This document shows, piece by piece, positions 26,859 through 46,500 of a DNA stretch of 64,000 nucleotides. The translations under genes and the position numbers were made by a program. The notes below the pieces were generated by a model that did no database searches, was not told the origin of the DNA, and saw only the letters and a list, made by a program, of their open reading frames with translations. Numbering within the stretch: position 1 is the first letter of the stretch; the number at the start of each line of letters is the position of its first letter. This DNA comes from Burkholderia cepacia (lineage in GTDB: Bacteria > Pseudomonadota > Gammaproteobacteria > Burkholderiales > Burkholderiaceae): the NCBI RefSeq assembly GCF_001039005.1, contig NZ_LDWR01000050.1, forward strand, positions 62,001-126,000. Reading direction: 5' to 3'.

Positions 26859-26946
26859 TGCAGGAAACCGAACATGTTTGGCGCGAGGCTCGATAAACTG
26901 CAACACCATGGGTGACTGCCATTCGTCGTAAGGCTTCAATGGGTGC

Positions 26947-26977
26947 GGCACCGGGCGCCATCGAGGCGCCCGGTGCC
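26947..26977. terminator. Perfect 13-bp hairpin between convergent T6SS and oxidase genes
   Basis: GGCACCGGGCGCC (26947-26959) and its exact complement (26965-26977) flank a 5-base loop ATCGA. It lies between tssL2 (ending 26858) and the leftward oxidase gene (ending 26997). There is no U-tract on either side, so it is a strong bidirectional stem but not a textbook intrinsic terminator. Confidence 0.6.
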
Positions 26978-26996
26978 GATCCGACGCACGCGCCGA

Positions 26997-29900
26997 TCAG
27001 GTCTGGATCGTGTTCATCACGTTGGCCGGCGTGATGAGATCGAACACCACGGTTTCGGGAATCGCGGTGGCGCCCGGATGTGCGTTCAGGTAGTTCGCCG
27101 TATCCCTCGCCTGCCGCGCGCCGATCGCCTCGCCGATCTTCACGACATCCCGGTAGTACTCGAACACGGCGTCCCGCAGCTGCGGGTCGACGAAACCGTA
27201 GCTGTCCTGCAGGAAGTCGATCGAGGGCTCCAGCACGCCGCGCCCCGTTACCGTTTCGGGGTAGGGGCCCTGGCCGGTCACCGACGCGTTGATCTGCACG
27301 TCCATGAAGTTCATGCCGCCGAGGGTCGGATAGGTGGCCGTTTGCGACGGCAGGCAGGCCAGCACGTCGGCCGGCGTCCACCGCGAGGACAGCTTGCCCG
27401 CCGGCAACGGGTACATCAGCGTCGATGCGTTGGGCACGAACGCCGCATGGTTGTACGCGCCGTCGTTGATCACCGTGTGCTGCACCGAGAACTGCCAGAT
27501 GAACATCGTGAGCACGTCGCGCAGCGTCGCGACGGTCTTGACCTCGGCCGGGAAGCGATGGGCGAACGTCGCATTGTCGACGAAGTTGAATGCGGGAATC
27601 AGTTTGTCGAAAAAGCGCTGAAGCTGGATGTCCGCCGCGATCGCCGGATCGCCGTCCGGATACCGAATCGCGATGAACTTGCCGACGAACCGGAAGATCG
27701 CGTCGTACCAAAGGCCGGCGTCATGAACGTACGCGTAGGAGAACGGCGTCTGCTCGACGCCGCGCCGCTTCGTATCGGCCGGAAGGGCCTGCTCCAGGAA
27801 GCGAAAGCGATCGTTGTCGTAGTACATCTTGTCCTGCAGCTGATAGTTGCCGATCCGCCCGCACGAGAAGATCAGGTCGTAGACGAAGCCGATGTTGTAC
27901 ACCCCGGGGGCGCCGTTGGCCTCGCGGGTCGCCGGGAAAGACTCCGCATACGGGTCGTAGGCACGGTTGTAGATGGTCTGCTGGAATTCCACGGTCTTCA
28001 CCACGTGTGGCCGCAGCAGCTTGAACACGGGGTGCTGCTGGAACGGCTCCGCGGAATGGGGCAGCGTGTCCGGGTTGAAGACCTCCTCCGAGAACAGCGC
28101 GATCGACACCATCGCGCAGATCTGGTGCGTCAGCAACTGATGAAAGCCCACGTCGTGCAGCGTCTGGCCCGCGCAGTTGGTCTGCATCTTGGCCAGCAGC
28201 CACGCATTCTCCGCATTGACCATGTCCGGCGTGAACAGCTCGCCACCCGGTTCGAGCTGGATGCCGACCGGCATCAGCTCGTGATGGTGGTCCACGGTGA
28301 AGAAGACGAGCGGCTTGGCGAGGTAGTAGCCCACCGGCGTCACCGTGCAGGCGTCCAGGTAGTGCCGGTAGTTGGCCACGTATTGCACCGCGCCCGGCCG
28401 GCCGAGACGCGCCGCGTCGACAATGCCGGCTTCCGAAACCAGCCGGTCGAAGTCCGCCGTCGACACCTTCTCGAGCAACGTCGGCATGAAGCCCGCGAGC
28501 TGCTGCCGGGCAAACTCGTCGTCGCTCTTCAGCCAGAACTTCGGCGCGGGGATCGTCTGGAAATTGTTGCCGTAGTAGATGTCCTCCAGCATCTTCACCG
28601 CGTTTTCCATATCCACGGGCCTCGGCGGCAGCTTCGCGCGCCAGGCGACGTTGTCGTCCCAGGCCGAGTTCAGCATCGCGAGCACCTGCTTGTCGCGGTT
28701 GATGGCCTTCATGGATTGCGGCACCGTGTCGTAGTCCGCCACGAACGCGGGCACCTGGCCATCGAACACGTATTGCGCGTTGCCGTAGATGCTGTCGCTG
28801 CCGCCCGGCGGCTTCGATGCCGCATCGCGGTCTGCCAGGTTGTACGTGTAGGCATACGACATCTGGTTTGCCGTGGCCGGGTCGCCTTCGATATCCGGCG
28901 CCAGGAACTTGCCCCAGGTCTGCTGCATGGCCTCGATCTTTTCAGCCTCGCCCGCATGCAGAAGGATGTTCAGCACGGCGTTGTAGGCCGAATCCAGCGC
29001 CCCGACGATCCAGCCGTGATGCACCGAGCAGCACTCGCCGGCGAAGTTCAGGCAGCCGTCGAACTCGGGCGTCAGCAGCGTCGGGTAGAGTTGCTTGAAC
29101 TGCCCCGGCTTGAACAGCGCGAACGCGCCGCCGCCTGCGTGCTCGTCCCAGAACCAGGTCTTGGTCGTCACGCCCTCCTCGTAGCCCGCGAAGGTCTCGT
29201 AGACATCGACTTCGGGGTACAGGTATTGAATGCCCTTGAGGCATTCTGCGATGCGCTCCCGGTCGTCGAGCGCCCCCAGCTTGCGCGCATCGAGCGCCCA
29301 GCAATACACCTGCAGCACGCCCTGGTCCGCCGCATAGCCGTACGACGGATAGATGATCTGCCGGTTCGGGCGGTCGGTTGCCGCCGCGCCGTAGCCGCCC
29401 GTCTGCTCCTGGCGCTCGCCCGCGTCGGCCCAGAACTGGCGCTTGAAGGTCAGGAAGGCCTTGAACGACGCCATGTAGTTGCATTCGCGGATGGCCTGCG
29501 CCTTGTCGAAGGAGATCCCTTCCAGCAGGTTCACGTGCTTCTGGCCGTTCAGGTAGGCGCCGGTGGGCAGCGTGGTGACGACATAGGGATAGGTTTGCTC
29601 GTGCTCGCGGCCGTCGTGCGTGCGGCGCACCTTGACCCGCATGCCGCCCTGGCCGTCGTTCAGGCTCGGGTCGTGGCGCAGGCTCGTCACCTCGTGCTGA
29701 AGGTGCACGCGCTGCTTGTAAGCGGCCCGCGACGGCTCGCCGCGCGACGCGCCTTCAGGATAGCGGGCGGTGGATGCCGGCGGCCTGGCATCCGGCGTGA
29801 GATTGGGCGGATCGTAACGGTAGGGGCCGCCCGGTTGCGGCAACATGCCGACCTGAATTTGCGCGGTGACGCCATCCTGCACCGTGACGGCGTCCTGCAG

Positions 29901-30971
29901 ATCGAGCACCATCCGGCACGCGTCCGGGAAGCGCTGCATTCCCTGGTCCACGGTGAGCATGTAGATCGCGTCGTCGTCCGGCCGATAGGGGTCCTTGCTG
30001 CCGCCCCAGTCATAGACGGCGATCACCATCTCCACGAACGACACCGAGTACATCCCGCTGCCGACGTTGGTGGTCTCGAGGAAATTGGCCACGGACCACG
30101 GCAACAGGTCGTTCTTCGCGCCCATCGCCGGATCGTAGTACTCGCCGAGATCCCCGAGGCGGAACTGCGTCGTCAGGTAATCCCACATCGAATACTGGTC
30201 GTACTGCATCAGCAGGTCGAAGCCCTCGGCAAACGACCGGTTGATGGCCTTCAGGAACGGCGCGTTCACCTGATCCAGCACCTTGTTGATCGGCAGGTAT
30301 TGGTCGTTGCCGACGCCCTTCGGTGTCACCCAGACCAACGGCACGTCGCCACCGTTCGCCACGCCGAAGTTGAAGCCGTCCAGCGTCGACTCGGCGGCCG
30401 TCGTGGGGTCTGCCATGTTGTTGTAGCGCAGCCGCTGTTGCGGCGAGTCGTAATAGAACTTCCGCCAGTACACGCTCTGGTCGTCCAGGCCGTTGCGGGC
30501 CAGCACCGCATTCACCGCCAGCGCAAGCTGCTGCACCGGCAGCATGTCCGCCGAAAACTGCGGCAGGCGCATCCCGCCGACTTCGCCATACAGGCCGGCG
30601 CGCTGCACGTCGTTCGGATCGTAGTCGCTCGAGTACCACGTGTGAATGCGTCCGCCCACGCGGTCCGACGATTCGAACAGCTCGAACTCGATGCCGAGCG
30701 ACTGCAGGATCAGCCCCGCGAACATCCCCGCGAAACCGCCGCCGACGATCCCGACCTGGGGCGCGTCCGCTTTCGCCGACAGCTTGTACGCGGCAGCGCC
30801 GCGCGTCGCGCGGATTTCGGCGGCCTTCGCGCGCTGCGTTTCGATCCTGGCGCGGTAGGTGGCCCCATGGTTGGCCAGTATCCAGTTCGAGAACGCGGCG
30901 CCGAGCGGGCGCCGCTGCCGGGCGTGGCGCACCGGCGAGACGGTCGTGGCGTTGAAATGAAGGAAGCTCAT
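26997..30971 (-). CDS. Amine oxidase-lipoxygenase fusion protein
   Basis: A 1324-residue protein of two enzymes. Residues about 70-660 are an FAD amine oxidase: dinucleotide fold GGGFAG at 77-82, Glu100, RVGGR near 104-108, and the C-terminal FAD motif FAGECCSVHHGW near 642. Residues about 700-1324 are a lipoxygenase: iron ligands His944 and His949 in FHQLLTHQ, preceded by LHDVG; then HPVFKLLRPH; then His1165 and Asn1169 in QHTVIN. The chain ends NTIQT, so the C-terminal carboxylate ligand would be Thr, not the usual Ile. Lipoxygenases dioxygenate polyunsaturated fatty acids; the oxidase substrate is unknown. No signal peptide is visible. The gene is single, with convergent or AT-rich flanks. 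The fold assignment is firm by motif; a combined reaction is inference. Confidence 0.85.
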   Translation of the reverse strand: MSFLHFNATTVSPVRHARQRRPLGAAFSNWILANHGATYRARIETQRAKAAEIRATRGAAAYKLSAKADAPQVGIVGGGFAGMFAGLILQSLGIEFELFESSDRVGGRIHTWYSSDYDPNDVQRAGLYGEVGGMRLPQFSADMLPVQQLALAVNAVLARNGLDDQSVYWRKFYYDSPQQRLRYNNMADPTTAAESTLDGFNFGVANGGDVPLVWVTPKGVGNDQYLPINKVLDQVNAPFLKAINRSFAEGFDLLMQYDQYSMWDYLTTQFRLGDLGEYYDPAMGAKNDLLPWSVANFLETTNVGSGMYSVSFVEMVIAVYDWGGSKDPYRPDDDAIYMLTVDQGMQRFPDACRMVLDLQDAVTVQDGVTAQIQVGMLPQPGGPYRYDPPNLTPDARPPASTARYPEGASRGEPSRAAYKQRVHLQHEVTSLRHDPSLNDGQGGMRVKVRRTHDGREHEQTYPYVVTTLPTGAYLNGQKHVNLLEGISFDKAQAIRECNYMASFKAFLTFKRQFWADAGERQEQTGGYGAAATDRPNRQIIYPSYGYAADQGVLQVYCWALDARKLGALDDRERIAECLKGIQYLYPEVDVYETFAGYEEGVTTKTWFWDEHAGGGAFALFKPGQFKQLYPTLLTPEFDGCLNFAGECCSVHHGWIVGALDSAYNAVLNILLHAGEAEKIEAMQQTWGKFLAPDIEGDPATANQMSYAYTYNLADRDAASKPPGGSDSIYGNAQYVFDGQVPAFVADYDTVPQSMKAINRDKQVLAMLNSAWDDNVAWRAKLPPRPVDMENAVKMLEDIYYGNNFQTIPAPKFWLKSDDEFARQQLAGFMPTLLEKVSTADFDRLVSEAGIVDAARLGRPGAVQYVANYRHYLDACTVTPVGYYLAKPLVFFTVDHHHELMPVGIQLEPGGELFTPDMVNAENAWLLAKMQTNCAGQTLHDVGFHQLLTHQICAMVSIALFSEEVFNPDTLPHSAEPFQQHPVFKLLRPHVVKTVEFQQTIYNRAYDPYAESFPATREANGAPGVYNIGFVYDLIFSCGRIGNYQLQDKMYYDNDRFRFLEQALPADTKRRGVEQTPFSYAYVHDAGLWYDAIFRFVGKFIAIRYPDGDPAIAADIQLQRFFDKLIPAFNFVDNATFAHRFPAEVKTVATLRDVLTMFIWQFSVQHTVINDGAYNHAAFVPNASTLMYPLPAGKLSSRWTPADVLACLPSQTATYPTLGGMNFMDVQINASVTGQGPYPETVTGRGVLEPSIDFLQDSYGFVDPQLRDAVFEYYRDVVKIGEAIGARQARDTANYLNAHPGATAIPETVVFDLITPANVMNTIQT

Positions 30972-30979
30972 GATGACCT

Positions 30980-31640
30980 CTGTGCGTGTGGTGTGACAGC
31001 GGGGACGACTAAGTCATTGGGCGATGCCGATCAGTCTCCGAATCGACATCGGACACGCGACGCGCGCGGTGCGCGACGCAAATGCGTACTCGATCGACAG
31101 GGCGGCTGACTTACTTCGGGAGGGGGCGTCCGGTGGACGCGTATCGAAACGGGGAACCGCGCCAGGCGCTATTGCGACCAAAGCTGTCCATTTTGAAATG
31201 GTCTCCGTGACAGAGCTGTTCAACCCGATGGCGTGGATCGGGATTTTTTAAATAAATATTGAATTTAAACTCAACAAGGCGCGACAGCAGGCGATGCAGT
31301 CGTCGGCCAAATCCGCACAACCCGGCTTTTGAAATATTGTCCTTTTGCCGCTTGGAAGCCCGGCGCCATTGAGGCTGTAATCAATTCGTCACATTTGCCG
31401 ATTCGAGGATGTCTGATGCGTGTTTCGGCGGGGGCATTCTGATATTAGTGGTCGGGTATCTAATATTCCACCTGTCATTATCGACAGTGCTTTTCAATAT
31501 TGAAATTATCGACGGTATTTTTTCAATATTTGAGAGCGATCGGGCGGCGCCATACGATATTTCCTGATCGAAACGATACGGATGCCTATGCTTGTCGATT
31601 ACCGTGCTGCATATTCGAATTCGATCGACATCGAGGCGCA
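30980..31640. other. AT-rich intergenic region with direct repeat
   Basis: No credible gene. The part near 30980-31100 should hold the promoter of the leftward oxidase-lipoxygenase gene. The part from 31240 to 31560 is strongly AT-rich and contains a tandem imperfect repeat (31477-31530) and the palindrome TTTCAATATTGAAA. It leads into a decayed TPR gene. Confidence 0.5.
31477..31530. repeat. Imperfect tandem repeat, two units of 25-26 bases
   Basis: Unit 1 (31477-31501) and unit 2 (31505-31530) both read ATTATCGAC, then 5-7 variable bases, then TTTTCAATATT. They are spaced 28 bases start to start, close to three helical turns less a few bases. A perfect 14-base palindrome TTTCAATATTGAAA (31492-31505) spans the junction. 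This could be a regulator site or simple sequence drift. Confidence 0.5.
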
Positions 31641-32450
31641 ATAACGGACATTCTCCTTTACGGTGATTTCGCGCGGTACTACGACCTCGTGCATGCCGCC
31701 CACGGCGAGCGACGAGGCTTATTCCGGAAGGTGGACGCGGGGCGCCCGGGCGGCATCGATCACCCGGACGGCGACCGCTATCGCTGGGGCTACTACCGGC
31801 ACAACATCCATTTCGCGCTGGCGTCGGCGATCATGACCGACCATGTCGAGGACATGAGCTGGGCCGCCGATCGGCTGCGGCGTTCGGAAGGCGACGGCGT
31901 GACGCGCAGGTGCTTGCCTACGTCCGCAAACGCGATGTCCAACGCACGCGGCGCGTATCTGAAACTTGAGGAGGACGTGATCGCATTCAGGAACGAGCGG
32001 CGCGACGAAGTGATGGGGCACCAGGCCGCGCAGATCGTGCAAGCGGTCGCGCGCGTGGATCGACCAGATGAACGGCGACGCGCGAGGCGGCGTGCGCGTG
32101 CTCGAATGCTCGGTCAGGCAACAGGACGCGATGAACTACGACGAGCCGCCTTACTGGATGGTGCCGGTCAGGCAGACCCTCGCCGCACTGCTGATCGACC
32201 TCGGCCGATACGACAACGCGATCGACACGCTCCACGCGTCGCTCGGCGGCGACGACCCGAATCGCAACCTGTCATGAATTTCAAAGGCAACGGCTGGGCA
32301 TATGTCGGCCTGACGCAGGCGTATGAACGCAAGGGGATCGAGAACCTGACGCCTGACCAACGGAGGGACGACGACAGCGCACGGAAGCGGCTCGCCGAAT
32401 ACTGTCCGCCGGGCAGTGACGCATGCGCGTTGTCGCTCGACCGGATGTAG
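31640..32450 (+). pseudogene. Decayed TPR-repeat protein gene with frameshifts
   Basis: TPR-like pieces occur in order but in different frames. Frame a (31640-32050) has YYRHNIHFALASAIM and AYLKLEEDVIAF. Frame b (32068-32277) has VLECSVRQQDAMNYDEPPYW and PVRQTLAALLIDLGRYDNAI. Frame a again (32275-32450) has NGWAYVGLTQAYERKG. The series resembles the C-terminal part of TPR proteins that end with a DEPP-W-PVR block followed by an NGW-GL block. At least two frameshifts (near 32050 and 32275) are needed to join them, and the N-terminal part is missing. No upstream ribosome site or start is convincing. Confidence 0.6.
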
Positions 32451-32597
32451 GCGGGCCGTGCCGGTCGGTTGAATTGTTTCGAAAATCGATTTAAATATTA
32501 AAATAATTAACGCTGCATTATTTCATATTGATTAAATTGACTTTACAATATGTAATGTTATATCTTGGTTGCCCAAAAACAATCGAGAGAAAACAAA

Positions 32598-34541
32598 GTG
32601 GCAATAAACGACGTGCTTCAAAAAAGCCGCCGCTGGTCGGCCATCGTCGCGTGGTCGGTATTCGCCGGACTGGCCGGCACCGCGTCGGCCAATACCGAGC
32701 CGGCGCAGCCGACGCAACCCAAGCAGGCGCGCATGCCTCGCGTGCCGCAGAATCTGCCCGTGTCGCCCGAGCAGGCGCAGTACAACCTGCCACTCAGCGA
32801 GCAGGATCGCGCGGCGCTGACCAAGCCTTCGCAGCTCAAGCAACCGGCCACGCGCAGCAAGCGCAGCACGTCGGGCGTCGATTGCCGCGACATGTCGGTG
32901 ATGGCCCAGTATCGCGGCGCGGCACTCGCCGATTACATCGCGAATCTTCCCGATTACGAATGCCATTACGGCCTGTTCTCGGTCGATAAAGCGCAGGCCA
33001 CACAGATCTTCAATGCCGAAAATGTGCACGCTGTCGCGAGTCGTTTCGTGCAGGAAATCTATCAATACGATGCGAGCAATTTGATCCTGGTCAATTTGCT
33101 GATTTATCTGCGTGCCGCTTATTACCAATATGATGTATCGGGCATGGCGAACCCGATTCCGAATCTCGCGGTGTCGCTGCGTCCGTATATCAAGCAAAGC
33201 CTGGAGGGCGATGCGCTCTATCGCGACAATTCACGTGCGCCGAGCACCGCGAACGAGCTGATGAAGCTCATCACGAACATGCGGGACGAAGCGTACTACC
33301 TGCCGACGCTGAAGAACCGCATCGCGTCCTACACCGTGAGCGCGGCGAATCCGCAGGCGGCGGCGCCGCTGCTGCAGCGCAGTGCGGCAGGCGGCTTCAC
33401 CGGTTTGCTCACGGTGTTCTTCTACGCGCACCAGCGCAGCGGCGCGCAGCCGATGCTCGACAGCGACGCGACGCTCCCGGAGACGCTCAACCGCTTCGTC
33501 ACCGCGAACCGCGCGAGCCTGTCGAACACGAGCGCCGCCTATCAGCTGGCCGACGCGGCGCGCGAAACGTTTCGCTTCCTCCGCTATCCGACGCAGAAGC
33601 CGCGCGTGAAGAAAATGATCCAGGACCTGCTCGCGTCGACGAGCATGACGGGCGCGGACAGCGATCTCTGGCTCGCGGCGGCGGAAGCGGTCGATTACGG
33701 CGATCCGGGCAACTGCGCGGACTACGGCACCTGCGACTACAAGAAGCGGCTGGCCGACGCGGTGCTCTCGAATCGCTACGCATGCAATGCGGGCGTGCGC
33801 ATTCTCGCGCAGGACATGACGATGCCGCAGCTGCAGTCGGTCTGCGCGGCGGTCGCGCGGCAGGACGACTACTTCCACCGGATGATGAAGACCGGGCGCA
33901 AGCCGGTCGCGGGCGATCGCAACGACACGATCGAACTCGTCATTTTCGACGACTACGCGAACTATCGAAAATACGCGTCGGTGATCTACGGCATCAGCAC
34001 CGACAACGGCGGCATGTATCTCGAGGGCGATCCGTCCGCGCCCGGCAACCAGGCGCGCTTCATCGCGCACGAGGCATCGTGGCTGCGGCCCGAGTTCAAG
34101 GTGTGGAACCTCGAGCACGAGTTCACGCACTATCTCGACGGCCGCTACGACATGGCGGGCGACTTCTCGGTGAGCACCGCGAAGCCGACCGTGTGGTGGA
34201 TCGAGGGCGTCGCCGAGTATCTGTCGAGAAAGAACGACAACCAGGAGTCGATCGACGCGGTGCGCACGGGCGCGTACCGGTTCTCGGACGTGCTCGGCAC
34301 GCGTTACTCGTCGAGTGACTACGTCACGCGCGCGTACCGGTGGGGCTACATGGCGACGCGCTTCATGTTCGAGCGCCATCGCGCGGACGTCGACACGATC
34401 GTGTCGCGCTTCCGGGTGGGCGATTACGACGGCTACGCAAACTATATCGCGTACATCGGCAATCGCTACGACACCGAGTTCGCCGACTGGGCGCGCAGCG
34501 CGACGCCGGCGGGCGAGCCGCCGGTGCCGGCGAAGCGCTGA
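32598..34541 (+). CDS. Secreted M9-family metallopeptidase (collagenase-like)
   Basis: A 647-residue protein starting at GTG 32598, with GAGAGA about 8 bases upstream. A signal peptide follows (RRWSAIVAWSVFAGLAGTASA). Residues about 30-85 are a Pro/Gln-rich linker. The N-terminal M9 domain covers about 100-400, and the catalytic domain has zinc site HEFTH at 507-511 and Glu540 in GVAEYLS. The size fits a Vibrio-type M9 catalytic core without C-terminal PKD or collagen-binding domains. It is predicted to be exported and to digest collagen or related peptides. The gene stands alone between the TPR remnant and the convergent hmq operon. An alternative TTG start at 32565 would only lengthen the leader. 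Confidence 0.85.
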   Translation: MAINDVLQKSRRWSAIVAWSVFAGLAGTASANTEPAQPTQPKQARMPRVPQNLPVSPEQAQYNLPLSEQDRAALTKPSQLKQPATRSKRSTSGVDCRDMSVMAQYRGAALADYIANLPDYECHYGLFSVDKAQATQIFNAENVHAVASRFVQEIYQYDASNLILVNLLIYLRAAYYQYDVSGMANPIPNLAVSLRPYIKQSLEGDALYRDNSRAPSTANELMKLITNMRDEAYYLPTLKNRIASYTVSAANPQAAAPLLQRSAAGGFTGLLTVFFYAHQRSGAQPMLDSDATLPETLNRFVTANRASLSNTSAAYQLADAARETFRFLRYPTQKPRVKKMIQDLLASTSMTGADSDLWLAAAEAVDYGDPGNCADYGTCDYKKRLADAVLSNRYACNAGVRILAQDMTMPQLQSVCAAVARQDDYFHRMMKTGRKPVAGDRNDTIELVIFDDYANYRKYASVIYGISTDNGGMYLEGDPSAPGNQARFIAHEASWLRPEFKVWNLEHEFTHYLDGRYDMAGDFSVSTAKPTVWWIEGVAEYLSRKNDNQESIDAVRTGAYRFSDVLGTRYSSSDYVTRAYRWGYMATRFMFERHRADVDTIVSRFRVGDYDGYANYIAYIGNRYDTEFADWARSATPAGEPPVPAKR

Positions 34542-34675: not shown

Positions 34676-36808
34676 CTAGCGATCCGTGCCGATGTCGGCA
34701 ACGTAGTTTGCGATACTGAAGAATCGATAGTCGCTCAGCAAATCAGGCGCCGGGAACCCCTCCGGATGAATCCGCCCGTAAATCGGGCTGTCGGGGCGCA
34801 GGCCGGCCAGCGTCAACGCGAGCGTGAATTCGTTGAACGGCGCCATGAACTGACGCGACACGAAATGCATGCCCCAGTTGAACACCGACGGAAGCTGCTC
34901 GGTGCGCAACCACGTGTCCGGCCCGCCCGGCGTACGCGCGCAAAGATTCTCCGCCCACGGGCTATGTCCTTCCACGATCAGAAAGCCATGCTTCGCGTGG
35001 CGCTTCCAGCGGGTCAGGAAATCGATGAGATCCGCAGCCGCCACGTAACCGGGAACAAGGCCTTCCGCGTCGCTATACGCCACCTTGAACGCTCGCTTGA
35101 TCTGGTCGAGCGTAATCGGCAACTCGGCCTGATCCGATACCGTCAGGGCGCCCGCATAGTACTGGTCGATCACCGCGCGCAGGCGTGCTCGGTCGACGGT
35201 GCGGAGATGGCGCTCGAGGATCGCTTCGGCGTCGTCCTTGCGCCGGATGCTCAACCGGCGGTTGTGGACCAGGAACATGAAGGTATGCAACAGGTCGCTC
35301 AGCCGCGCCGGGCGCATGCAGCCGTCCGGCTGCCCGACGGTCAGGCCGCTTTCGGCCACGGCTTCGTCATAGCGGTCGGGCTGGGAAATGTCGGCGGCGA
35401 TCACGCGCACCTGCACGCCTGGGATGTCCTTCAGCGCAGACAGCGTGGCGGCGGCGCGGCCGCGCGCGGATTCGTTGTAGTCAGCGCCGATCACGAGCAG
35501 CGGATGGGTCGCGAGGTGCCGGCCGCGCCGCGTCGACGTAACGACGTATTCCGCCAGGCGCTTCAGCGCGCTGCCGTCGCCGCAGCCCATGTCGGCGATG
35601 CCGGCCGGCTGGCGATCCAGCAGCGTGTCGTCGAACAGCGTGCGCAGGATTTTCGTCGTGATTTCGTGCGACGCGGGCCCGGACCCGGCGCCGCTCGACG
35701 CATACACGTTCATCACGCGATCGATGTGGCCGTCGCTATCGATATCGAGCGGATCGGGGTTGCGGAACAGGAGTTCGTCGAGCAGCGCATACGAACGCAG
35801 ATAGGACGCGGGCAACCCCGCGTAAGGGGCGGCAATCGGTCGATGAATCCGGCCCGACTCGGTGAGGCGCACCTTTTCGCGATCGATTTCCGCCATGCCG
35901 AACTTGCACATCAGCGCCCATGCCGCGTGCAGCACGACAGGATCAGCCTGTGTCCACGCGCCGACCGCGACCCCGTCGGGCTGCGCGTCGAGCTTGCCGA
36001 GGATGCCGGGCGCCGACTGCGAGTACTGGCCGTCCGGCTGCCTGTCGAACACCGGCATATCGAGCGCGACCCAGGTCGGGCCGAGCAGCAGGCCGTCCAT
36101 CGCCGTGCGCAGCTGTCCATTCACCTGGCGCTCCAGATCGGTGGCCGGGAGCGGAAGCTCCGGCCAGCCCGCCACGCAGATCCGCGCGAGCTGCGCATAC
36201 AGCACGCTGTCGTTGGCCGCCACGCGCGTTCGATGACACAGTGCGTGCAGATGCTGGAGCACCGACGTGGCATTCGCCAGTTGCTCGAACAGCGGCCGGG
36301 TGCGCTCGACGCACGCGACGACATATTCACCGGCCGGGGTGAGCGCATATTCGGCGTCTTCGTCGCCGCGATCGAGGGTCAGCCAGCCGGCCAGGCTCAA
36401 CAGGTTGAGGGCGCCCCACAGCACCCCCAGGTTACGGGTCGGGTCGGGCTGGCGGGATTCCGCGAACGCGCGCATCGCGCGGGGCGCGCCGGCCCGCAGG
36501 CCGCGGAACGCGCCGGCAAACACCAGGCGCGCCAGTGTCGGCACCAGCACGATGCCGTTCGCCCAGTTGCAACTGCGCGTATAGGCCATCACGCGCTGAG
36601 CGTCGTGTCGGCCGATGCGCAGCGTGGCTGCATGTGTGTGTTGCTCGAGCTTGACCGGCAGTTCCATGTCGAGCACCTCGACGCCGATCGCGGTACCGGC
36701 CGACAGGCCGAGCAAGGTGCGCGTTTCGTCGGGATAGGCGTGGAGATAGTGTTCGAGTTGTCGGGCCAGCGCGGCGGTGGAATCACCAAGGTCGAATCGG
36801 GCGTGCAT
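34676..36808 (-). CDS. hmqG: HmqG-like SAM-dependent methyltransferase
   Basis: A 710-residue protein, last gene of the hmq operon. The class I methyltransferase motif ADMGCGDG is at about 405-412, followed by VIGADYNESARG near 440. Residues 1-380 form a long N-terminal region without a recognised enzyme motif. The architecture recalls the AprA-type methyltransferases of polyketide starter modules, an impression not checked. In Burkholderia hmq systems HmqG adds the 3-methyl group of the alkylquinolines. ATG 36808 follows the hmqF stop by 11 bases; longer in-frame sequence upstream overlaps hmqF and is rejected. Confidence 0.82.
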   Translation of the reverse strand: MHARFDLGDSTAALARQLEHYLHAYPDETRTLLGLSAGTAIGVEVLDMELPVKLEQHTHAATLRIGRHDAQRVMAYTRSCNWANGIVLVPTLARLVFAGAFRGLRAGAPRAMRAFAESRQPDPTRNLGVLWGALNLLSLAGWLTLDRGDEDAEYALTPAGEYVVACVERTRPLFEQLANATSVLQHLHALCHRTRVAANDSVLYAQLARICVAGWPELPLPATDLERQVNGQLRTAMDGLLLGPTWVALDMPVFDRQPDGQYSQSAPGILGKLDAQPDGVAVGAWTQADPVVLHAAWALMCKFGMAEIDREKVRLTESGRIHRPIAAPYAGLPASYLRSYALLDELLFRNPDPLDIDSDGHIDRVMNVYASSGAGSGPASHEITTKILRTLFDDTLLDRQPAGIADMGCGDGSALKRLAEYVVTSTRRGRHLATHPLLVIGADYNESARGRAAATLSALKDIPGVQVRVIAADISQPDRYDEAVAESGLTVGQPDGCMRPARLSDLLHTFMFLVHNRRLSIRRKDDAEAILERHLRTVDRARLRAVIDQYYAGALTVSDQAELPITLDQIKRAFKVAYSDAEGLVPGYVAAADLIDFLTRWKRHAKHGFLIVEGHSPWAENLCARTPGGPDTWLRTEQLPSVFNWGMHFVSRQFMAPFNEFTLALTLAGLRPDSPIYGRIHPEGFPAPDLLSDYRFFSIANYVADIGTDR

Positions 36809-36819
36809 GTTGGACGGTC

Positions 36820-39800
36820 TCACAGGGTCGAAGGTTGGGCTGCAATGAGTGAAGGTGCATCCGGATCGGCGTGCGCGACGGCAACCGCCGGCGCGGCGCC
36901 GTGCGTCCGGGGCGCGAGATGGGCGGCCAGCGCGCGAATGGACGGGTAGTCCCAGACCGCGGACGGATCGACTGTCACGCTGAACGCGTCGCTGAATACG
37001 ATCGTCATTTCGACGGCGAGGATCGAATCGAAGCCGATCTCGGCGAACGTCGACTCGCGCGTCAATCGAAGCTTGCGGTGCTTGAGGCGCTCGCCCAGCC
37101 ACGCGATGAGCCATTGTTCGACGGCATGAACCTGCTGGCGATCGATCAGGCTCGCCGGCTCGCTCACGATCGGGGCCGCCGAACCGGCATCTTCGCCGGC
37201 TGGCGCGTCGGGCGCGGAGGAGACCGGACGCGCGTCGGCATGGGCGTCCAGCAACGGATCGACGAGCTGGCTTGCGCCCGGGATCGTTTGCTCGATCGCG
37301 CCGATCTCGAACCCGGTGCGCGCTGCCCAGTCGTTCAACTCCACCGACGTGGACAGCGCCGAGCGCAGGCCGACCTGCCGTTGCGCGGCCTCGATCGCGC
37401 GTTCGTACTGGCTCTGCGCCCAGCGCAGCGCGCCGTCGCCGATGCGCTGCTGTGCGGCCGCGCGTTCGATCACCGCCAGCAGCAAGCCCCATTGCGCGAC
37501 CGTGCCGAGCCAGTAATTGACCCAGACGGCGGCATGCGCGGCGCCGCCGAGTTTCGACGCATTGGCGAGCCCGTCTTGCGCCAGCTGTGCGCCCAGCTCG
37601 CGCAGCTCCGTGGCCAGCACGCCGGCGCCCAGCGCATGCTCCAGATAGCGCAGCAAATCGTCGCTCCCGTTGAGCAGACGGCTGCCCAGGTGAACCAGCA
37701 GCGTTTCGGTCGGCCCCTCGAAGATGCGGGTCAGGCGCGCGTCGCGGAAGATCTGCGGCGCCAGGTTGGTCTCGATATAACCGCGGCCGCCCAGGAACTG
37801 CATCATCTCGTCGGCGGATTGCGACAGCAGCTCGGAGCCGAGAATCTTCGAGATCAGCAGGCAGTCTTCAGGCAGCGCGACGCCGAGGTCCAGCTCGGTG
37901 GCCAGGTGCTCGACCAGCGCGTTGAGCCCGTCGATGCGGTCCCGCAGTTCGCCCAGGCGCAGGCGGCTCAGCGGGTTGTCCAGCAGGAGGCCGGTGCCGA
38001 CCTGGCGCCGCGCCCCGTAGCGATGCATCAGCTGCGCACAGCGTTTCATTCCGCCCACGCAGACGGCAGCGATGCCGAGGCGCGCAATGTTCATCGCGTG
38101 CTGCGCCACGAACATCCCTTGGCCGATGTCGCCGAGCCGGTATGCGTCGCTGATGCGTGCCCGATCCAGATGCAGCGAATTCTGGATCATGCCGCGCACG
38201 CCCATCGTCAGCTCCTCGGCGCCGATCCGCACGCCTGGCGTGCCGGGGCGCACCGCCAATCCGACCATCCCCGTGCCGTCGGCCTGCTTCGCGAACACGT
38301 TGATGATCCCCGCCCACGCGGACGAGCCGCTCCAGCTCTTGTTGCCCGTGACCAGCCAGTCGCCGGACTCGATGCGCTGCGCGCGGGACGCGATCGCGCG
38401 CACATGCGAACCCGCGGCCGGCTCCGTGATCGCGAAGGCGGCGAGCATCCGGCCGCTCGCGAGGCTCGGCAGCAATTCCTCGCGCAACGGCGGCTGCGCA
38501 TGCTGCATGATCGGCAGGATCCCGAGCGTGTTGTTCAACGCGACAAAGAAAGCCAGCGTCGAATCGATCGCGGCCAGTTGCGCCAACACGCGCGACATGT
38601 CGCGCTGGCCGAGGCCGAGGCCGCCATGCGAACGGTCGATCGGCATGCCGAGCAGGCCCCGGTTCCCGAAATCGAGCACGATGTGCGGCGGAATGGTGCG
38701 GCGCTCGTCGATGGTGCGCGAATCGATCCGCGTGCGGGCGTAGTGCCTGAGCCAGTCGTTCAGTTCGTCGACGGTGGCGCTGGCATCGCGCCGGCGATCG
38801 TTGGCCGCCGGTTTGTCGGCAACTGCTGCCGGGCGCGCGGGCTGCCGGCGATCGGGCGCGGGCGTCTCGACGCCGCCCTCGACGTCCCACTGCGCGAGGA
38901 TCGTCAGCGCGCCGTCGTGCAACTGCGTGCGGCACGTGCTGCGGCGCACCTTGCCGCTCGACGTTTTCGGCACGCTGCCGGGCGACACCAGCACGATCGC
39001 GCTCGGGCCGATGTCGAGGCGGTTCCAGATCGCCTGGCGAATCGCGTCGATGAAGCTGTCGAGATTGCCCTTGCGCTGCGTGCGCTCGACTTCCGCCACG
39101 ACGATCAGGCGTTCCGCGTCGAACTGGTCGTCCATGAAGGCCGCGCAACCGTTCGGCACGAGTTCCGGCATGCCGACGATCAGCGCGTACTCGATGTCTT
39201 CCGAGTAGTAGTTGCGGCCGGCCAGGATCACCATGTCCTTGAGCCGGCCGGTGACGTACAGTTCGTTATCCAGAATGAAGCCGAGATCGCCGGTGCGCAT
39301 GAATGCCTGATCCCGGTCGTCGGCCAGCGTGTGCCGGAAGGTCGAATGCGTCTGCTCGTCCAGACGCCAGTAGCCGGCGGCGATGCTCGGGCCGGCCACG
39401 CAGATTTCGCCGATGGTCCGATCGTCGCAACGCGCATTGGTCTCCAGGTCGCGCACGATCACCTGTTGTTCGCCGTCGGTGCGGCCCACGCCGACCAGCA
39501 CTCGCTCGCCCGGGCGGTCCAGCGGCTGCGGCGATACGCCCTGGAACTCGCTGCGCAACACGACGGATTGCCGCTGGAGCGCGGTCTGATCGACGCACAG
39601 CGTGCGGATCGGATGCCGCTCCGTGCGGCCGGCGACGTACAGCGTGCCCTCCGCCAGCCCGTAGCACGGCAGGAAGCCGTCGGCGGCGAAGCCCGCGGCG
39701 GCGAAGCGCTGCGCAAAATCCGTCAGCGTGCTGGCGCGCACCGACTCGGCGCCGTTGTAGGCGACCCGCAGGCACGACAGGTCGAGCGTCGCCAGCTGTT

Positions 39801-40635
39801 CGTCGGAGATCCGCCGGTAGCACATCCGGTACGCGAAATCCGGCGCGCCCGTCAGGTCCGCACGGTACTGGCTGATTGCGCGCAGCCACAGGTACGGATG
39901 CTGGATGAAGCGTTCCGGGGCCATCAGCACGCTCCGGAAGCCGCCGTAGAGCGACGTCAGGATCACGCTGATCAGGCCCATGTCGTGGTAGGGCGGCAGC
40001 CAGCTGACGATCGTGCTTGCCTCGTCATAGGCGAGCCATTCGCGCATCAGCCCCAGGTTGTGCATCAGGTTGCCGTGCGACACCATCACGCCCTTGGGGC
40101 TGCCGGTGGTTCCCGACGTGTATTGCAGAAAGGCGATGTGGGAGGGCTGCACGTCGGCGGGCGCATCGACGGGTTCCAGCACCTGCGCGCCGCCGACGTC
40201 GAGCAGCGTGCTGCCGGATGCATCGGTATCGGCGAGCCAGGTCGTGCAGCGCGCGTGGTCATCGGCCGAGCACAGGATCGTGTTGGCGCCCGCGTTCTCG
40301 ACGATGCCGGCGATCCGCACCATGTGCTGCCTGTTGCGCGGCGGGTAGGCAGGCACCGCGATCGCGCCCGCATACAGGCACCCCATGAAGGCGCTGACGT
40401 AATCGAGCCCCGGCCGGCACAGCAGCAGCACGCGGTCGCCGATCTCGACCGCGTTCTGCCGCAGCAGCGCGGCGATCTGCCGGGCGCGTGCGTCGAGCGC
40501 CGCGAAGGTCATCGATTCGGCCTGTTCCTGATCGGGCGGCCCGCTCAGGAACACGTAGGCGGTTTTGTCGCCGAGGGTGGCGGCCCGGTTCTGAAGCAAT
40601 TCGCTGAGCGTGGTCGGCAAGGTCGCAGTGGTCAT
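36820..40635 (-). CDS. hmqF: HmqF-like fusion: acyl-AMP ligase, acyl-CoA dehydrogenase, acyl carrier protein
   Basis: A 1271-residue three-part protein. Residues 1-580 are a fatty acyl-AMP ligase (YTSGTTGSPKGVMVSHGN near 175; SWLPPYHDMGLI; RTGDLGFI). Residues about 625-1020 are an acyl-CoA dehydrogenase (AITEPAAGSHVR near 732; RIFEGPTETLLVHLG near 973). Residues about 1160-1240 are an acyl carrier protein with phosphopantetheine site GFDSILAVEM (Ser1204). The layout suits activation of a fatty acid, loading on the carrier and alpha,beta-desaturation, giving the 2-alkenyl side chain of HMAQs. ATG 40635 gives an FAAL-like N-terminus. It lies 89 bases downstream of hmqE, the largest gap in the operon. 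Confidence 0.9.
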   Translation of the reverse strand: MTTATLPTTLSELLQNRAATLGDKTAYVFLSGPPDQEQAESMTFAALDARARQIAALLRQNAVEIGDRVLLLCRPGLDYVSAFMGCLYAGAIAVPAYPPRNRQHMVRIAGIVENAGANTILCSADDHARCTTWLADTDASGSTLLDVGGAQVLEPVDAPADVQPSHIAFLQYTSGTTGSPKGVMVSHGNLMHNLGLMREWLAYDEASTIVSWLPPYHDMGLISVILTSLYGGFRSVLMAPERFIQHPYLWLRAISQYRADLTGAPDFAYRMCYRRISDEQLATLDLSCLRVAYNGAESVRASTLTDFAQRFAAAGFAADGFLPCYGLAEGTLYVAGRTERHPIRTLCVDQTALQRQSVVLRSEFQGVSPQPLDRPGERVLVGVGRTDGEQQVIVRDLETNARCDDRTIGEICVAGPSIAAGYWRLDEQTHSTFRHTLADDRDQAFMRTGDLGFILDNELYVTGRLKDMVILAGRNYYSEDIEYALIVGMPELVPNGCAAFMDDQFDAERLIVVAEVERTQRKGNLDSFIDAIRQAIWNRLDIGPSAIVLVSPGSVPKTSSGKVRRSTCRTQLHDGALTILAQWDVEGGVETPAPDRRQPARPAAVADKPAANDRRRDASATVDELNDWLRHYARTRIDSRTIDERRTIPPHIVLDFGNRGLLGMPIDRSHGGLGLGQRDMSRVLAQLAAIDSTLAFFVALNNTLGILPIMQHAQPPLREELLPSLASGRMLAAFAITEPAAGSHVRAIASRAQRIESGDWLVTGNKSWSGSSAWAGIINVFAKQADGTGMVGLAVRPGTPGVRIGAEELTMGVRGMIQNSLHLDRARISDAYRLGDIGQGMFVAQHAMNIARLGIAAVCVGGMKRCAQLMHRYGARRQVGTGLLLDNPLSRLRLGELRDRIDGLNALVEHLATELDLGVALPEDCLLISKILGSELLSQSADEMMQFLGGRGYIETNLAPQIFRDARLTRIFEGPTETLLVHLGSRLLNGSDDLLRYLEHALGAGVLATELRELGAQLAQDGLANASKLGGAAHAAVWVNYWLGTVAQWGLLLAVIERAAAQQRIGDGALRWAQSQYERAIEAAQRQVGLRSALSTSVELNDWAARTGFEIGAIEQTIPGASQLVDPLLDAHADARPVSSAPDAPAGEDAGSAAPIVSEPASLIDRQQVHAVEQWLIAWLGERLKHRKLRLTRESTFAEIGFDSILAVEMTIVFSDAFSVTVDPSAVWDYPSIRALAAHLAPRTHGAAPAVAVAHADPDAPSLIAAQPSTL

Positions 40636-40724
40636 GATGTCGTCGGAAGAGGATTGAAAACAGCGAGCAGCGGCCCGACGCCGGGCGGCGCCCATGCGTT
40701 GCTGCGGCGGGAATCCGAAGGAGG

Positions 40725-41621
40725 CTATTCGGCGCGATGGAACAGATCGATCATGTGCATCATGCTTTTGAGATGCAGGAAATGCGGCACCACCTTTTCG
40801 CTTCTTGCTGCGTAACGGGCAGTCCAGTGGTGGGCCAGTTCCTGCGTGGCGGCGGTGTTGCCGCGAACCGCGCGCGCGTCGGCCTCGCGCGCATCGAGGC
40901 ATGCGCGTGCGTGCCGCGCGGCCGATCGGGCGAGTGCACCGGCGAGGATGCCGTGGTGCCCCAGTGCGAGCCGCGGCGCGTGCAGCTGCTCGATGACGCC
41001 CAGCGAGTGCCGATACGCAAACAGATCCTGAAAGACCAGCGGCAGCCAGTGGGTGGCACCGTGAAACTCGCCGAGCGCATCCGACACGAAACCGATATCC
41101 AGCTGCGGGCAGTAGTAGCCGAACTGGCAACGGCTGTGGCCCGGCAGTGCGATCGTGCGAATCTGCATCCCGCCGCCGATGTCGAGCTGCGTGCCCGGAT
41201 TGACCGGGTAGAACGGCAGGTCGGACAGCTCGGTGAAGTCGATACCGACGGCGGGCGCCCACGACCGTGACGCGTGCGCGTCGAGCTGACGGATGGTGCG
41301 GCAGGCCGACGGGCTCTGGAACGCATCGAACGCGTCGGGAGAACCGGATACATGGAGCCACGGCATGCGCGACTTGAGCGTCATCAGCAGGCTGCAATGG
41401 TCATAGTGCGAGTGGGTGATCAGCCAGTAGCGCAGATGCCGGATGCCGCCGAAGTCCCGCAGCAGATCGTGAAGTTGCTGCCACACGAGTTCCGTCATGC
41501 CGCTCAGGCCGCCCTCGATCAGCGTCGCGGCCTCGTCGTTGACGATCACGTACAGCGGCACGTCAGCCGTGCCGACGAGGGCCAGCCGCGGCTCGATCCA
41601 CCCCGGGGAAGCGTTCAGCAT
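40725..41621 (-). CDS. hmqE: HmqE-like metallo-beta-lactamase-fold hydrolase
   Basis: A 298-residue MBL-fold protein with the metal motif THSHYDH (His70, His72, Asp74, His75), a later IALPGHSRCQFGYY and ALGHHG. PqsE, the counterpart in Pseudomonas, is a thioesterase acting on 2-aminobenzoylacetyl-CoA with additional regulatory roles. The equivalent chemistry is inferred here from operon position. GGAG lies 9 bases before ATG 41621, and the gap after hmqD is only 5 bases. Confidence 0.85.
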   Translation of the reverse strand: MLNASPGWIEPRLALVGTADVPLYVIVNDEAATLIEGGLSGMTELVWQQLHDLLRDFGGIRHLRYWLITHSHYDHCSLLMTLKSRMPWLHVSGSPDAFDAFQSPSACRTIRQLDAHASRSWAPAVGIDFTELSDLPFYPVNPGTQLDIGGGMQIRTIALPGHSRCQFGYYCPQLDIGFVSDALGEFHGATHWLPLVFQDLFAYRHSLGVIEQLHAPRLALGHHGILAGALARSAARHARACLDAREADARAVRGNTAATQELAHHWTARYAARSEKVVPHFLHLKSMMHMIDLFHRAE

Positions 41622-41626
41622 GTCGT

Positions 41627-42625
41627 TCAGCTCCGATAGAGCGCACAGGCCCAGGTCGCGCCCGCGCCGTAGGTCACGAAGAGGTTGAGCTGCCCGGCCG
41701 GCATGCGGCCTTGCTCGCGCGCGATGGCGAGCGCGACCGGAAACGCCGCGCTTGCCATGTTGCCCAGCTGATCCACGGAAATCATGCAGCGCTCGCGGGG
41801 CAGACCGAGCCGCTCGATGACCGCGTCGAGGATGCGCAGGTTCGGCTGATGCGGCACGACCAGGCCGATATCTCCGATCGTCAGCCGGTGCTTGTCGAGC
41901 ATCTGCCGGCACGCGTCGACGATGCGTCGCGTGGCGTCTTCGAACATGGGCCCGCCTTTCATCCGGAAGTAATGCCGGCCGGCCGCGATGTCGTCTTCGT
42001 CGATGAAGCGCGGGCGTCGCGCGCCGGGCGCTTCGGTGCTGAGCAGATCGAACTGGGTGCCGTCGGCGCCGAGCGTCAGGTCGATCAGCCCGTGCGCCGG
42101 GTGGTCCGTCGCTTGCAGCAGCAGCGCGGCGGCGCCGTCGCTCAGCAGGATCGACAGATTCCGGCCGGCATTGCTGGTGTCGATCCGCCGCGACAGCGCC
42201 TCGGCGCAGATCAGCAGCACGTTGCGATACAGGCCGCTCGCGAGGAAATGGCGCGCGATCTCGACCCCGTAGAGCCCGCCGCTGCATTGCGCGCGGATAT
42301 CGAAGCACGGAATCTCCCGCAAGCCGAGCCGGGGCTGGATGTAGCACGCCTGCGACGGATCGTGATGATCCGGCGACAGCGTATTGACGATCAGCAGATC
42401 GACGTCCTGCGCGCTGACGCCCGCGTCGGCCATCGCCCGTTCCGCGGCCGGGCACGCGAGATCCGCCAGATGCTGATCGGGGGCGAGATAGCGTCGCGCG
42501 ACGACGCCGGTTCGTTCGCGAATGAACGCGTCGCTGGTGTCGATCATGCCGGCGACTTCGTCGTTGCTGACGATCCGGTCCGGCAGCGCGTGGCCCATCC
42601 CGGCGATAACGAGTCTGGCGGTCAT
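41627..42625 (-). CDS. hmqD: HmqD-like KAS III-fold synthase (PqsD counterpart)
   Basis: A 332-residue beta-ketoacyl-ACP synthase III-type enzyme with the full triad: Cys114 in AQCSGGLYG, His259 in VVPHQPN, and Asn289 in DQLGNM. PqsD condenses anthraniloyl-CoA with malonyl-CoA (or malonyl-ACP) to 2-aminobenzoylacetyl thioester, and this gene has the matching position and active site. The ATG overlaps the hmqC stop by four bases (ATGA). Confidence 0.88.
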   Translation of the reverse strand: MTARLVIAGMGHALPDRIVSNDEVAGMIDTSDAFIRERTGVVARRYLAPDQHLADLACPAAERAMADAGVSAQDVDLLIVNTLSPDHHDPSQACYIQPRLGLREIPCFDIRAQCSGGLYGVEIARHFLASGLYRNVLLICAEALSRRIDTSNAGRNLSILLSDGAAALLLQATDHPAHGLIDLTLGADGTQFDLLSTEAPGARRPRFIDEDDIAAGRHYFRMKGGPMFEDATRRIVDACRQMLDKHRLTIGDIGLVVPHQPNLRILDAVIERLGLPRERCMISVDQLGNMASAAFPVALAIAREQGRMPAGQLNLFVTYGAGATWACALYRS

Positions 42626-43731
42626 GCCCGCACCTCCTGCTCCGTGACGGCGGCGATGGTTTCGCCCGCATCGGTCACGACGGTTTCGCCCCAGCGCCAC
42701 AATTGCGCGCCGAAGCCCCAGCCGGCGCCTGCGCCGGCAATCACGACCAACGATCCCGGCCGGATCACGCCTTCCCGGATCGACTCGAACAATGCAAACG
42801 GCACGGCGGCCGACACGAGGCACGCACAATCGGCCACGCGAATCACGTATTGGTCGGGCTTGAGCCCGAGCCGCTGGGCCCATGCGCGCACGAGCAGCGC
42901 CGACGGCTGATGGAACACCATCGCATCGACGTCGGCGATGTTCGTTCCGCTCCGCTGCAACAGCCGCTCGACGATATCGGGAATGGCCACCGGCATGAAG
43001 CGCGAGATCGCCTCCTGCGCTTCGGGCTTGAGCGTGAAATACACGCCGAACGGATTGTCGGCGTCGGTTGCCGCGTCATCGTCAGCCGCCGCCCGGGCGT
43101 TGCGCCACTGCATCGTCACGAGGTCGTAGTGCGTTGCATCGCTGCGATACGCGGCATCCAGCCAGTCGGCACCGCCGGGATCGGCCGGCTCGGCGACGAG
43201 CACGGCCGCGGCCGCGCCATCGCCGAAGTTCGTCGACGATTTGCTGGTGTAGTCGACCACCGCCGACATGCGCTCCGACGAGCACACCAGCGCGCGCTTC
43301 ACGCGTCCCTGCTTGATGAGGTTGGTCGCGATCTGCAGTTGCAGCACGAAGCTCGCGCATTCCATCTCGACATCGGCGTCGAGCGCGCGCATGGCGCCGA
43401 GCCGGTCGCGCAGCGCGCGCGACAGCCGCGGCGCGAAACGGCGCCGGCCGTCGGTGAGCGAGACGAACGGCGACGTCATGTTGAACAGCACCAGATCGAG
43501 TTCGGCGGCCTCCACGCCGGCACGGGCGAGTGCGTCGCGCGCCGTGCGCTCGGCCAGCGCGAGCTCGGATTCGCCGGCATCGGGATCGATCATGTAGCGC
43601 GATTCGATGCCCCAGAATTGCCACCATTCCGACGGAATGGGCTCGACGCCCGCGAACACGGGATCGTCGTTGGGGACCTGGCGCGCCGGCAGGCGGCACG
43701 CGAGACTTGCGATTCGAACGTTGTGCACCAT
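42622..43731 (-). CDS. hmqC: HmqC-like KAS III-fold condensing enzyme (PqsC counterpart)
   Basis: A 369-residue thiolase-fold protein. Cys125 (EMECASF) and His274 (VFHQPSA) are present. The region that should carry the third Asn reads ADCACLVSAAVP near 300-310, with no Asn. A Cys-His pair without Asn is a known feature of PqsC, which acts with PqsB to join 2-aminobenzoylacetate and an acyl group. The start overlaps the hmqB stop by one base (TGATG) and the stop overlaps the hmqD start. Confidence 0.86.
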   Translation of the reverse strand: MVHNVRIASLACRLPARQVPNDDPVFAGVEPIPSEWWQFWGIESRYMIDPDAGESELALAERTARDALARAGVEAAELDLVLFNMTSPFVSLTDGRRRFAPRLSRALRDRLGAMRALDADVEMECASFVLQLQIATNLIKQGRVKRALVCSSERMSAVVDYTSKSSTNFGDGAAAAVLVAEPADPGGADWLDAAYRSDATHYDLVTMQWRNARAAADDDAATDADNPFGVYFTLKPEAQEAISRFMPVAIPDIVERLLQRSGTNIADVDAMVFHQPSALLVRAWAQRLGLKPDQYVIRVADCACLVSAAVPFALFESIREGVIRPGSLVVIAGAGAGWGFGAQLWRWGETVVTDAGETIAAVTEQEVRA

Positions 43732-46273: not shown

Positions 46274-46500
46274 CAGCGCTCGCAAGAGTGTGAGTTCGAA
46301 GTCCGCGATAGCGGTGCGGCGCCGGCCGGGCCGTTTGATCGGGCCCGTCCCGCGCAACCTGAATCGCGATGCCAAAGAGGCGTGGTCGGGGCGGCAGGCA
46401 CATGTCGCCGCGCGACGCACGGAGAGCCCGGTCAATCACATGATGGCTTGCCGGTTTTTATGGATTTATTCCGTCTCATTTGATTTTCAAAATAAACAAT

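Follow-up and report, generated by a model that had tools for sequence, protein, structure and literature searches.

A rare bacterial protein family that joins an L-amino acid oxidase-type flavin domain to a divergent lipoxygenase-fold domain

Results

One reading frame carries two enzyme domains

We analyzed a 64,000-nucleotide stretch of Burkholderia cepacia DNA (assembly GCF_001039005.1, contig NZ_LDWR01000050.1, positions 62,001 to 126,000; hereafter the window) and a gene on its minus strand whose product combines an N-terminal flavin adenine dinucleotide (FAD) domain resembling L-amino acid oxidases (LAAOs) with a C-terminal domain resembling lipoxygenases (LOXs) (Table 1). Gene and protein are here called AO-LOX, for amine oxidase-lipoxygenase. 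As the initial annotation had read it, this is a single two-domain polypeptide: the 1324-residue frame contains zero internal stops, and both domains exceed their Pfam cut-offs, PF01593 Amino_oxidase with E 1.8e-36 and 126.9 bits (cut-off 19.8) and PF00305 Lipoxygenase with E 3.3e-18 and 66 bits (cut-off 23.6). PF13450 NAD_binding_8 also matches, at residues 75-112 (30.3 bits, cut-off 21.9). A Pfam search with the opposite-strand frame at 26943-31109 (plus, 1388 residues) returned no match. The fusion is not a product of chance or of assembly, since eight distinct full-length copies exist that are 66-99% identical to the window protein: six from Burkholderia, one from Microcystis and one from a gammaproteobacterial metagenome-assembled genome (MAG). 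These copies comprise the window's own, that of genome G047, that of B. stagnalis YJ-2 and five from a scan of GTDB species. AO-LOX is a real enzyme family that has had no name so far.

Table 1. Positions of the AO-LOX gene, its domains and key residues, and adjacent elements in the window
Feature	Position	Strand	Basis or content
AO-LOX gene, LAAO-type FAD domain and lipoxygenase domain, 1324 residues	26997..30971	-	Pfam, PDB sequence search
FAD amine oxidase / LAAO-type domain, about residues 70-690	28902..30764	-	Pfam, PDB search, alignment; Rossmann motif 72-112; Arg135, Lys504, Tyr541 and Trp654 at LAAO active-site positions
Lipoxygenase catalytic domain, about residues 791-1324	27000..28601	-	Pfam, PDB search, model, hhalign
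HQLLTH, presumed iron ligand pair His944 and His949	28125..28142	-	Sequence, 65-row alignment
HTVIN, presumed iron ligand pair His1165 and Asn1169	27465..27479	-	Sequence, 65-row alignment
Ala1172, Gln column of unfused relatives	27456..27458	-	65-row alignment
C-terminal VMNTIQT, presumed carboxylate ligand Thr rather than Ile	27000..27020	-	Tails compared
Hairpin, 14-bp stem, possible terminator	26946..26978	-	19 bases behind the stop, between convergent genes
AT-rich element, possible promoter element	31244..31269	-	-298 to -273 of the AO-LOX gene

The first half resembles L-amino acid oxidases

A PDB sequence search with the first half placed L-amino acid oxidases on top (9enh, E 9.7e-41; the L-lysine oxidase 7c3i, E 1.1e-36). 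The FAD amine oxidase signature of the initial annotation stood, including its Rossmann motif, and these matches sharpen it to an assignment, based on sequence, to the LAAO type. We take 9enh to be Hebeloma LAAO4, 7c3i to be the Trichoderma L-lysine oxidase and the related 7e0c to be an L-glutamate oxidase. Arg135, Lys504, Tyr541 and Trp654 were invariant in all eight rows of an alignment of four fused proteins and four stand-alone LAAO-like proteins taken from the same order, and their positions also aligned with 9enh in the PDB search. Judging from (snake) LAAO structures, these residues presumably serve the substrate carboxylate, a flavin-linked water and the substrate pocket.

Because the first half is specifically of LAAO type, an L-alpha-amino acid would be a likelier substrate than a simple amine. 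N-acyl amines, which had also been proposed, are unlikely substrates, as an LAAO-type site requires a free alpha-amine. A lysine-oxidase-like specificity, suggested by Asp321 in the PDB alignment, was dropped because the residue numbering could not be fixed. Relative to the four stand-alone proteins, the fused family carries insertions near residues 206-230, 268-292, 323-337 and 371-443; conservation reaches 72% at 268-292 and 79% at 371-398 and only 48% at 206-230. In a 1200-residue structure model, for which the flavin half had six alignment rows, most residues of this half had a predicted local distance difference test score (pLDDT) under 50 and the LAAO fold was left unresolved.

The second half diverges deeply within the lipoxygenase fold family

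Searched against the PDB by sequence, the second half retrieved animal-type lipoxygenases, with the coral allene oxide synthase-lipoxygenase first (3fg3, E 3.9e-21). An AlphaFold2 model of residues 670-1324, built on 65 sequences, had a mean pLDDT of 66.5 and a predicted template modeling score (pTM) of 0.72, and 338 of its 655 residues reached at least 70. Foldseek matched this model to 132 PDB chains at E <=0.001; all 50 listed were lipoxygenases, and the best among the matches listed was 4qwt (E 2.1e-16, probability 1.00). The model matched coral, 12-, 15- and 5-lipoxygenases best, and a profile-profile comparison with lipoxygenases (hhalign) gave a probability of 99.9. The lipoxygenase fold was thus found by Pfam, by AlphaFold2 with Foldseek and by hhalign alike.

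The four presumed side-chain ligands, His944, His949, His1165 and Asn1169, lie where they had been claimed, with the spacings HxxxxH and HxxxN. In an alignment of 65 rows, 6 fused and 59 unfused, the three His columns hold His in 65/65, while the Asn1169 column of the unfused rows holds Asn in 47/59 and Ala in 12/59. All four ligands are present in every aligned full-length fused copy. The distances from Trp924 to His939, His944 and His949 (+15, +20 and +25) are canonical and ungapped in sequence alignments that include the coral protein, and a 5-residue gap after Trp924 proposed by hhalign, which would shift the ligand register, was therefore rejected. From sequence and model, we assign the second half to the lipoxygenase fold family, in which it is divergent, and stop short of calling it a proven lipoxygenase. 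In a quick tree of LOX domains, the fused domains grouped together (Shimodaira-Hasegawa-like approximate likelihood ratio test 100); the branch leading to them was 3.9 changes per column long, and the point at which it attaches is unsafe.

Variation was also seen among the stand-alone enzymes. Locus L013 (1186-2847) encodes a lipoxygenase of 554 residues with His at the position of the Asn ligand (HSSVH) and a Val end, and cyanobacterial lipoxygenases at L040, L042, L047, L052, L056-L058, L070, L104 and L109 have a C-terminal Gly, not Ile.

The fusion is rare and patchily distributed

A whole-protein search found the fusion in 5/65 Burkholderia genomes. It was present in 4/299 sampled genomes of the family, confined to one genus out of 25, and although 5/399 genomes of the order matched at E 1e-15, only the window's own match was full-length. 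A lipoxygenase family model detected any lipoxygenase in 6/369 sampled genomes of the class and 4/398 of the phylum, and the window's own was the only one inside a frame of over 1,000 residues. Among 72,556 plasmid records, a set that may omit records very near the window's genome, one carried the whole protein: that of B. stagnalis YJ-2, 92.8% identical. Its annotation there says only 'FAD-dependent oxidoreductase', so the LOX half has been overlooked in this record.

GTDB was scanned with a single peptide pattern at one genome per species (84,980 species). The pattern matched 168 stretches, 122 of which encode a relative; the best 80 of these 122 loci were kept, and a lipoxygenase frame was found in 66 of them, with 14 left unclassed. 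Five of the best 80 loci carry the fusion (B. lata, B. stagnalis, Burkholderia sp. SRS-46, Microcystis wesenbergii FACHB-1317 and Gammaproteobacteria MAG C7_D7_9), 60 lack the oxidase domain in the lipoxygenase frame, and one, in Nostoc mirabile CHAB5784 (L038, 7906-8535), belongs to the fused family as a broken fragment that shows only part of the LOX domain. This count is a lower bound, because 42 further relatives were left out and the scan would overlook any copy that lacks the pattern. Both surveys agree that the fusion is rare. Two acidobacterial loci, L091 and L095, each have two adjoining lipoxygenase genes.

Outside Burkholderia, the starting genome was the sole carrier among 291 sampled genomes of the Microcystis order and among 144 of the MAG's family. 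At 51%, the GC content of the Microcystis fusion gene exceeds the 42-44% of its flanks, and a phage-type integrase gene (PF00589) adjoins the fusion gene. This contrast, the integrase gene and the patchy presence in distant groups point to horizontal transfer of the AO-LOX gene between distant bacteria. Two scans of viral contigs revealed no relatives and phage records held no match to the LOX half; carriage by viruses or phages was rejected on these grounds.

Both halves are under purifying selection

Over its whole length, the window protein is 72% identical to the Microcystis copy and 66% to the MAG copy, and the two halves diverge to similar degrees (AO 0.72 and LOX 0.73 to Microcystis; 0.69 and 0.66 to the MAG). 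Across Burkholderia, Microcystis and the MAG, the most conserved 30-residue segments included 639-668 and 297-326 (97%) and 125-154 (90%) in the oxidase half, and 1158-1187 (93%) and 938-967 (87%) at the iron site; they include the carriers of the LAAO active-site residues and of the iron ligands. The ratio of nonsynonymous to synonymous substitution rates (dN/dS) between the window and B. stagnalis copies was 0.185 overall, 0.20 for the AO and 0.17 for the LOX half. Thus, purifying selection acts on both halves. The region between them (691-790) is 46% conserved, compared to 65% and 62% for the halves. Because the same colinear fusion occurs in two phyla, the link itself is probably useful.

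The conserved unit is a single gene

In the window, the AO-LOX gene faces the end of a type VI secretion system (T6SS) cluster that encodes a ClpV-like ATPase, VipB, VasE, VgrG, IcmF, DotU and TssF proteins and a Tle1-like phospholipase, with the hairpin, which no T-run follows, between them. The cluster adjoins the gene only in this genome, and a T6SS link as a general feature of AO-LOX was rejected for that reason. The gene for the Tle1-like phospholipase effector (PF09994; 16678-18957) places a lipid-releasing enzyme near a LOX-type gene, again in this genome only. The equivalent side is occupied in G047 and SRS-46 by genes for fatty-acid breakdown (acyl-CoA dehydrogenase, electron-transfer flavoprotein-ubiquinone oxidoreductase, thiolase and 3-hydroxyacyl-CoA dehydrogenase) and in B. 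stagnalis by a porin gene; the B. lata contig stops ~0.8 kb behind the AO-LOX gene and gives no view of that side.

Upstream, the Burkholderia copies have ~700 bp in common, which in B. stagnalis are split into pieces; this segment includes the AT-rich element, which is identical or almost so across all six. Beyond this shared segment, SRS-46 has a divergent methyltransferase gene, to which the window frame at 31500-32450 retains a likeness of 59 residues. The copies of B. stagnalis, SRS-46 and B. lata have octopine-dehydrogenase-like, PhyH-type or methyltransferase genes nearby; on the B. stagnalis megaplasmid (L024, 1-27975), genes for a tyrosinase, DUF2182, DUF692, two octopine-dehydrogenase-like proteins and PhyH stand beside the fusion gene. 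In the window, a Peptidase M9 (collagenase-type) gene (32565-34541) separates AO-LOX from what looks like a fatty-acyl natural product cluster (34676-46435, minus strand), part of which recurs next to AO-LOX in G047 and B. lata. This cluster includes a protein that unites an AMP-ligase, an acyl-CoA dehydrogenase and a carrier protein (36820-41397), as well as ketoacyl synthase III genes and a methyltransferase gene.

Membership of AO-LOX in a biosynthetic cluster was rejected, as no neighbor is common to all copies. When the neighboring frames of the Microcystis and MAG copies were compared with the six Burkholderia regions by BLAST, nothing matched except the AO-LOX gene itself and antisense frames. 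The conserved unit is thus the single gene, accompanied in Burkholderia by its upstream region, and because neighbors differ between genomes, AO-LOX seems to move and work alone.

Discussion

A possible peroxide-coupled enzyme

Lipoxygenases need oxidation by peroxide before they work. The reading we tentatively prefer, as plausible though short of probable, is that AO-LOX is a cytosolic bifunctional enzyme whose flavin half makes hydrogen peroxide from an L-alpha-amino acid, whose neighboring iron domain uses it, and whose gene spreads itself. The N-terminal domain would use O2 to oxidize an L-alpha-amino acid, releasing H2O2 and ammonia along with a 2-oxo (imino) acid. The C-terminal lipoxygenase-type domain, held adjacent and presumably containing non-heme iron, would then use this peroxide in one of two ways: to bring resting ferrous iron to the ferric state, enabling dioxygenation of an unsaturated lipid-like substrate, or as the oxidant itself. 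The gene would spread on its own among distant bacteria and be selected as one unit.

Several observations weigh against this reading. At position 1172, all 6 fused rows have Ala whereas all 59 unfused rows have Gln, which lies three residues past the Asn ligand and is presumably a second-shell residue with the role it has in soybean lipoxygenase. Position 940 is Asp in 6/6 fused rows and Glu (53) or Gln (6) in the 59 unfused ones. The unfused rows were obtained with a pattern ending at His1165, which may favor likeness there; positions 940 and 1172 both lie outside the pattern. The helix of the INxxAxxxLI motif appears rebuilt at residues 996-1005, with an insertion that makes the alignment unsure at column 1004, where 58/59 unfused rows have Leu and the fused ones Ala or Asp. 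The protein also extends beyond the canonical lipoxygenase tail, ending in VMNTIQT in 6/6 fused rows, from Burkholderia, Microcystis and the MAG alike, whereas the 58 unfused tails end in Ile (45), Gly (10) or Val (3). A motif built on the unfused tails, which themselves score 14.9 to 38.9 when left out one at a time, scores <=1.9 anywhere in the fused proteins, and their true C-terminus is not their top-scoring place. In the LOX model this tail has a pLDDT under 50, and the carboxylate of its terminal Thr would be a doubtful fifth iron ligand, kept as a candidate because VMNTIQT is invariant. Because near-universal second-shell and tail residues are changed in all six fused rows, fatty-acid dioxygenation by the LOX half would not be a secure assignment.

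The models add further points of this kind. TM-scores between the LOX model and solved chains were modest (best row 0.58/0.56), and the 1200-residue model, with a mean pLDDT of 49.9 and a pTM of 0.50, lends no support to contact between the halves or to the peroxide channeling proposed in the initial annotation. No signal peptide was seen in the protein by eye, with no predictor run. To our knowledge Burkholderia is not a producer of polyunsaturated fatty acids, so such a substrate would have to come from outside; in B. thailandensis none were reportedly detected (PMC11011848).

The altered residues invite other explanations. In one, which we judge quite improbable, the lost Gln and Glu/Gln, Asp940, the Thr tail and the rebuilt channel helix would be the marks of a lipoxygenase-fold iron site retuned from an O2-dependent lipoxygenase into a self-supplied, amino acid-driven non-heme iron peroxygenase; if true, this would be new chemistry for the lipoxygenase fold. 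The same losses in 6/6 fused rows, together with the very long branch to other bacterial lipoxygenases, could also indicate that the LOX half has no lipoxygenase activity and acts as a scaffold, as a regulator or in other iron chemistry, leaving a protein that is mainly an amino acid oxidase. We hold this to be unlikely, however, as the four side-chain ligands are kept in all aligned full-length copies, the segments around the iron site rank with the best conserved of the protein, and dN/dS of the LOX half is as low as that of the flavin half. A similar standing falls to a scheme of two steps on one substrate, in which the head of a lipo-amino acid or biosynthetic intermediate is deaminated and its unsaturated chain oxygenated. 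The flavin-domain insertions, well conserved at 268-292 and 371-398, could widen or roof the pocket for such a molecule, and the octopine-dehydrogenase-like, PhyH-type or methyltransferase genes near three of the Burkholderia copies are consistent with it, but no neighboring gene is shared by all copies and those of Microcystis and the MAG are unmatched in Burkholderia.

Two further schemes concern the link between the halves. That they are merely co-inherited, without coupling, would agree with the lower conservation of region 691-790 and with the failed 1200-residue model, in which no interface was seen; we nevertheless give it little credence, because the fusion persists in every full-length copy found, in both phyla, against 60 classed LOX loci that have no oxidase. 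An amine-oxidase-fold polyunsaturated fatty acid isomerase exists in Cutibacterium, and a flavin half that pretreats a fatty acid and passes it to the LOX half would explain the joining to a lipid-type enzyme. No result favors this directly, and it is very improbable given that the closest relatives are LAAOs and that the active-site Arg, Lys, Tyr and Trp positions are kept.

Comparison with known lipoxygenases and fusions

We found no description of an amine oxidase-lipoxygenase fusion in the open-access literature searched, with subscription papers and preprints outside its scope, in line with the initial annotation, which knew of no established fusion of this type; as far as that literature shows, the architecture is new. 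Under our preferred reading, of a flavin half that supplies peroxide to the iron domain, AO-LOX would activate itself, as a natural lipoxygenase with a peroxide source built in, and the old question of peroxide activation becomes testable in one protein.

AO-LOX shares with the L-amino acid oxidases 9enh, 7c3i and 7e0c the sequence of the FAD domain and the positions of the active-site Arg, Lys, Tyr and Trp, and differs from them in its several flavin-domain insertions and in the entire lipoxygenase domain behind. With stand-alone bacterial lipoxygenases (Pseudomonas LoxA, 4g32, and the myxobacterial, sphingomonad and Burkholderia multivorans enzymes, the last at L048) it has the catalytic fold and the side-chain iron ligands in common. 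However, identity to these is ~19-25%, the second-shell residues and the C-terminus are different, and they have no flavin domain in their frame. The layout resembles that of the coral and cyanobacterial catalase-lipoxygenase fusions (PMC11719350, PMC5617202). Like the coral allene oxide synthase-lipoxygenase (3dy5, 3fg3), whose lipoxygenase the second half matches best among solved structures, and the cyanobacterial catalase-related fusions, AO-LOX has a peroxide-related enzyme before a C-terminal lipoxygenase domain. In contrast to these fusions, Pfam and PDB searches place a flavin amine oxidase, and no catalase-like heme domain, at its N-terminus: their partner is a heme protein that consumes lipid hydroperoxide, whereas the flavin oxidase of AO-LOX would be a source of peroxide.

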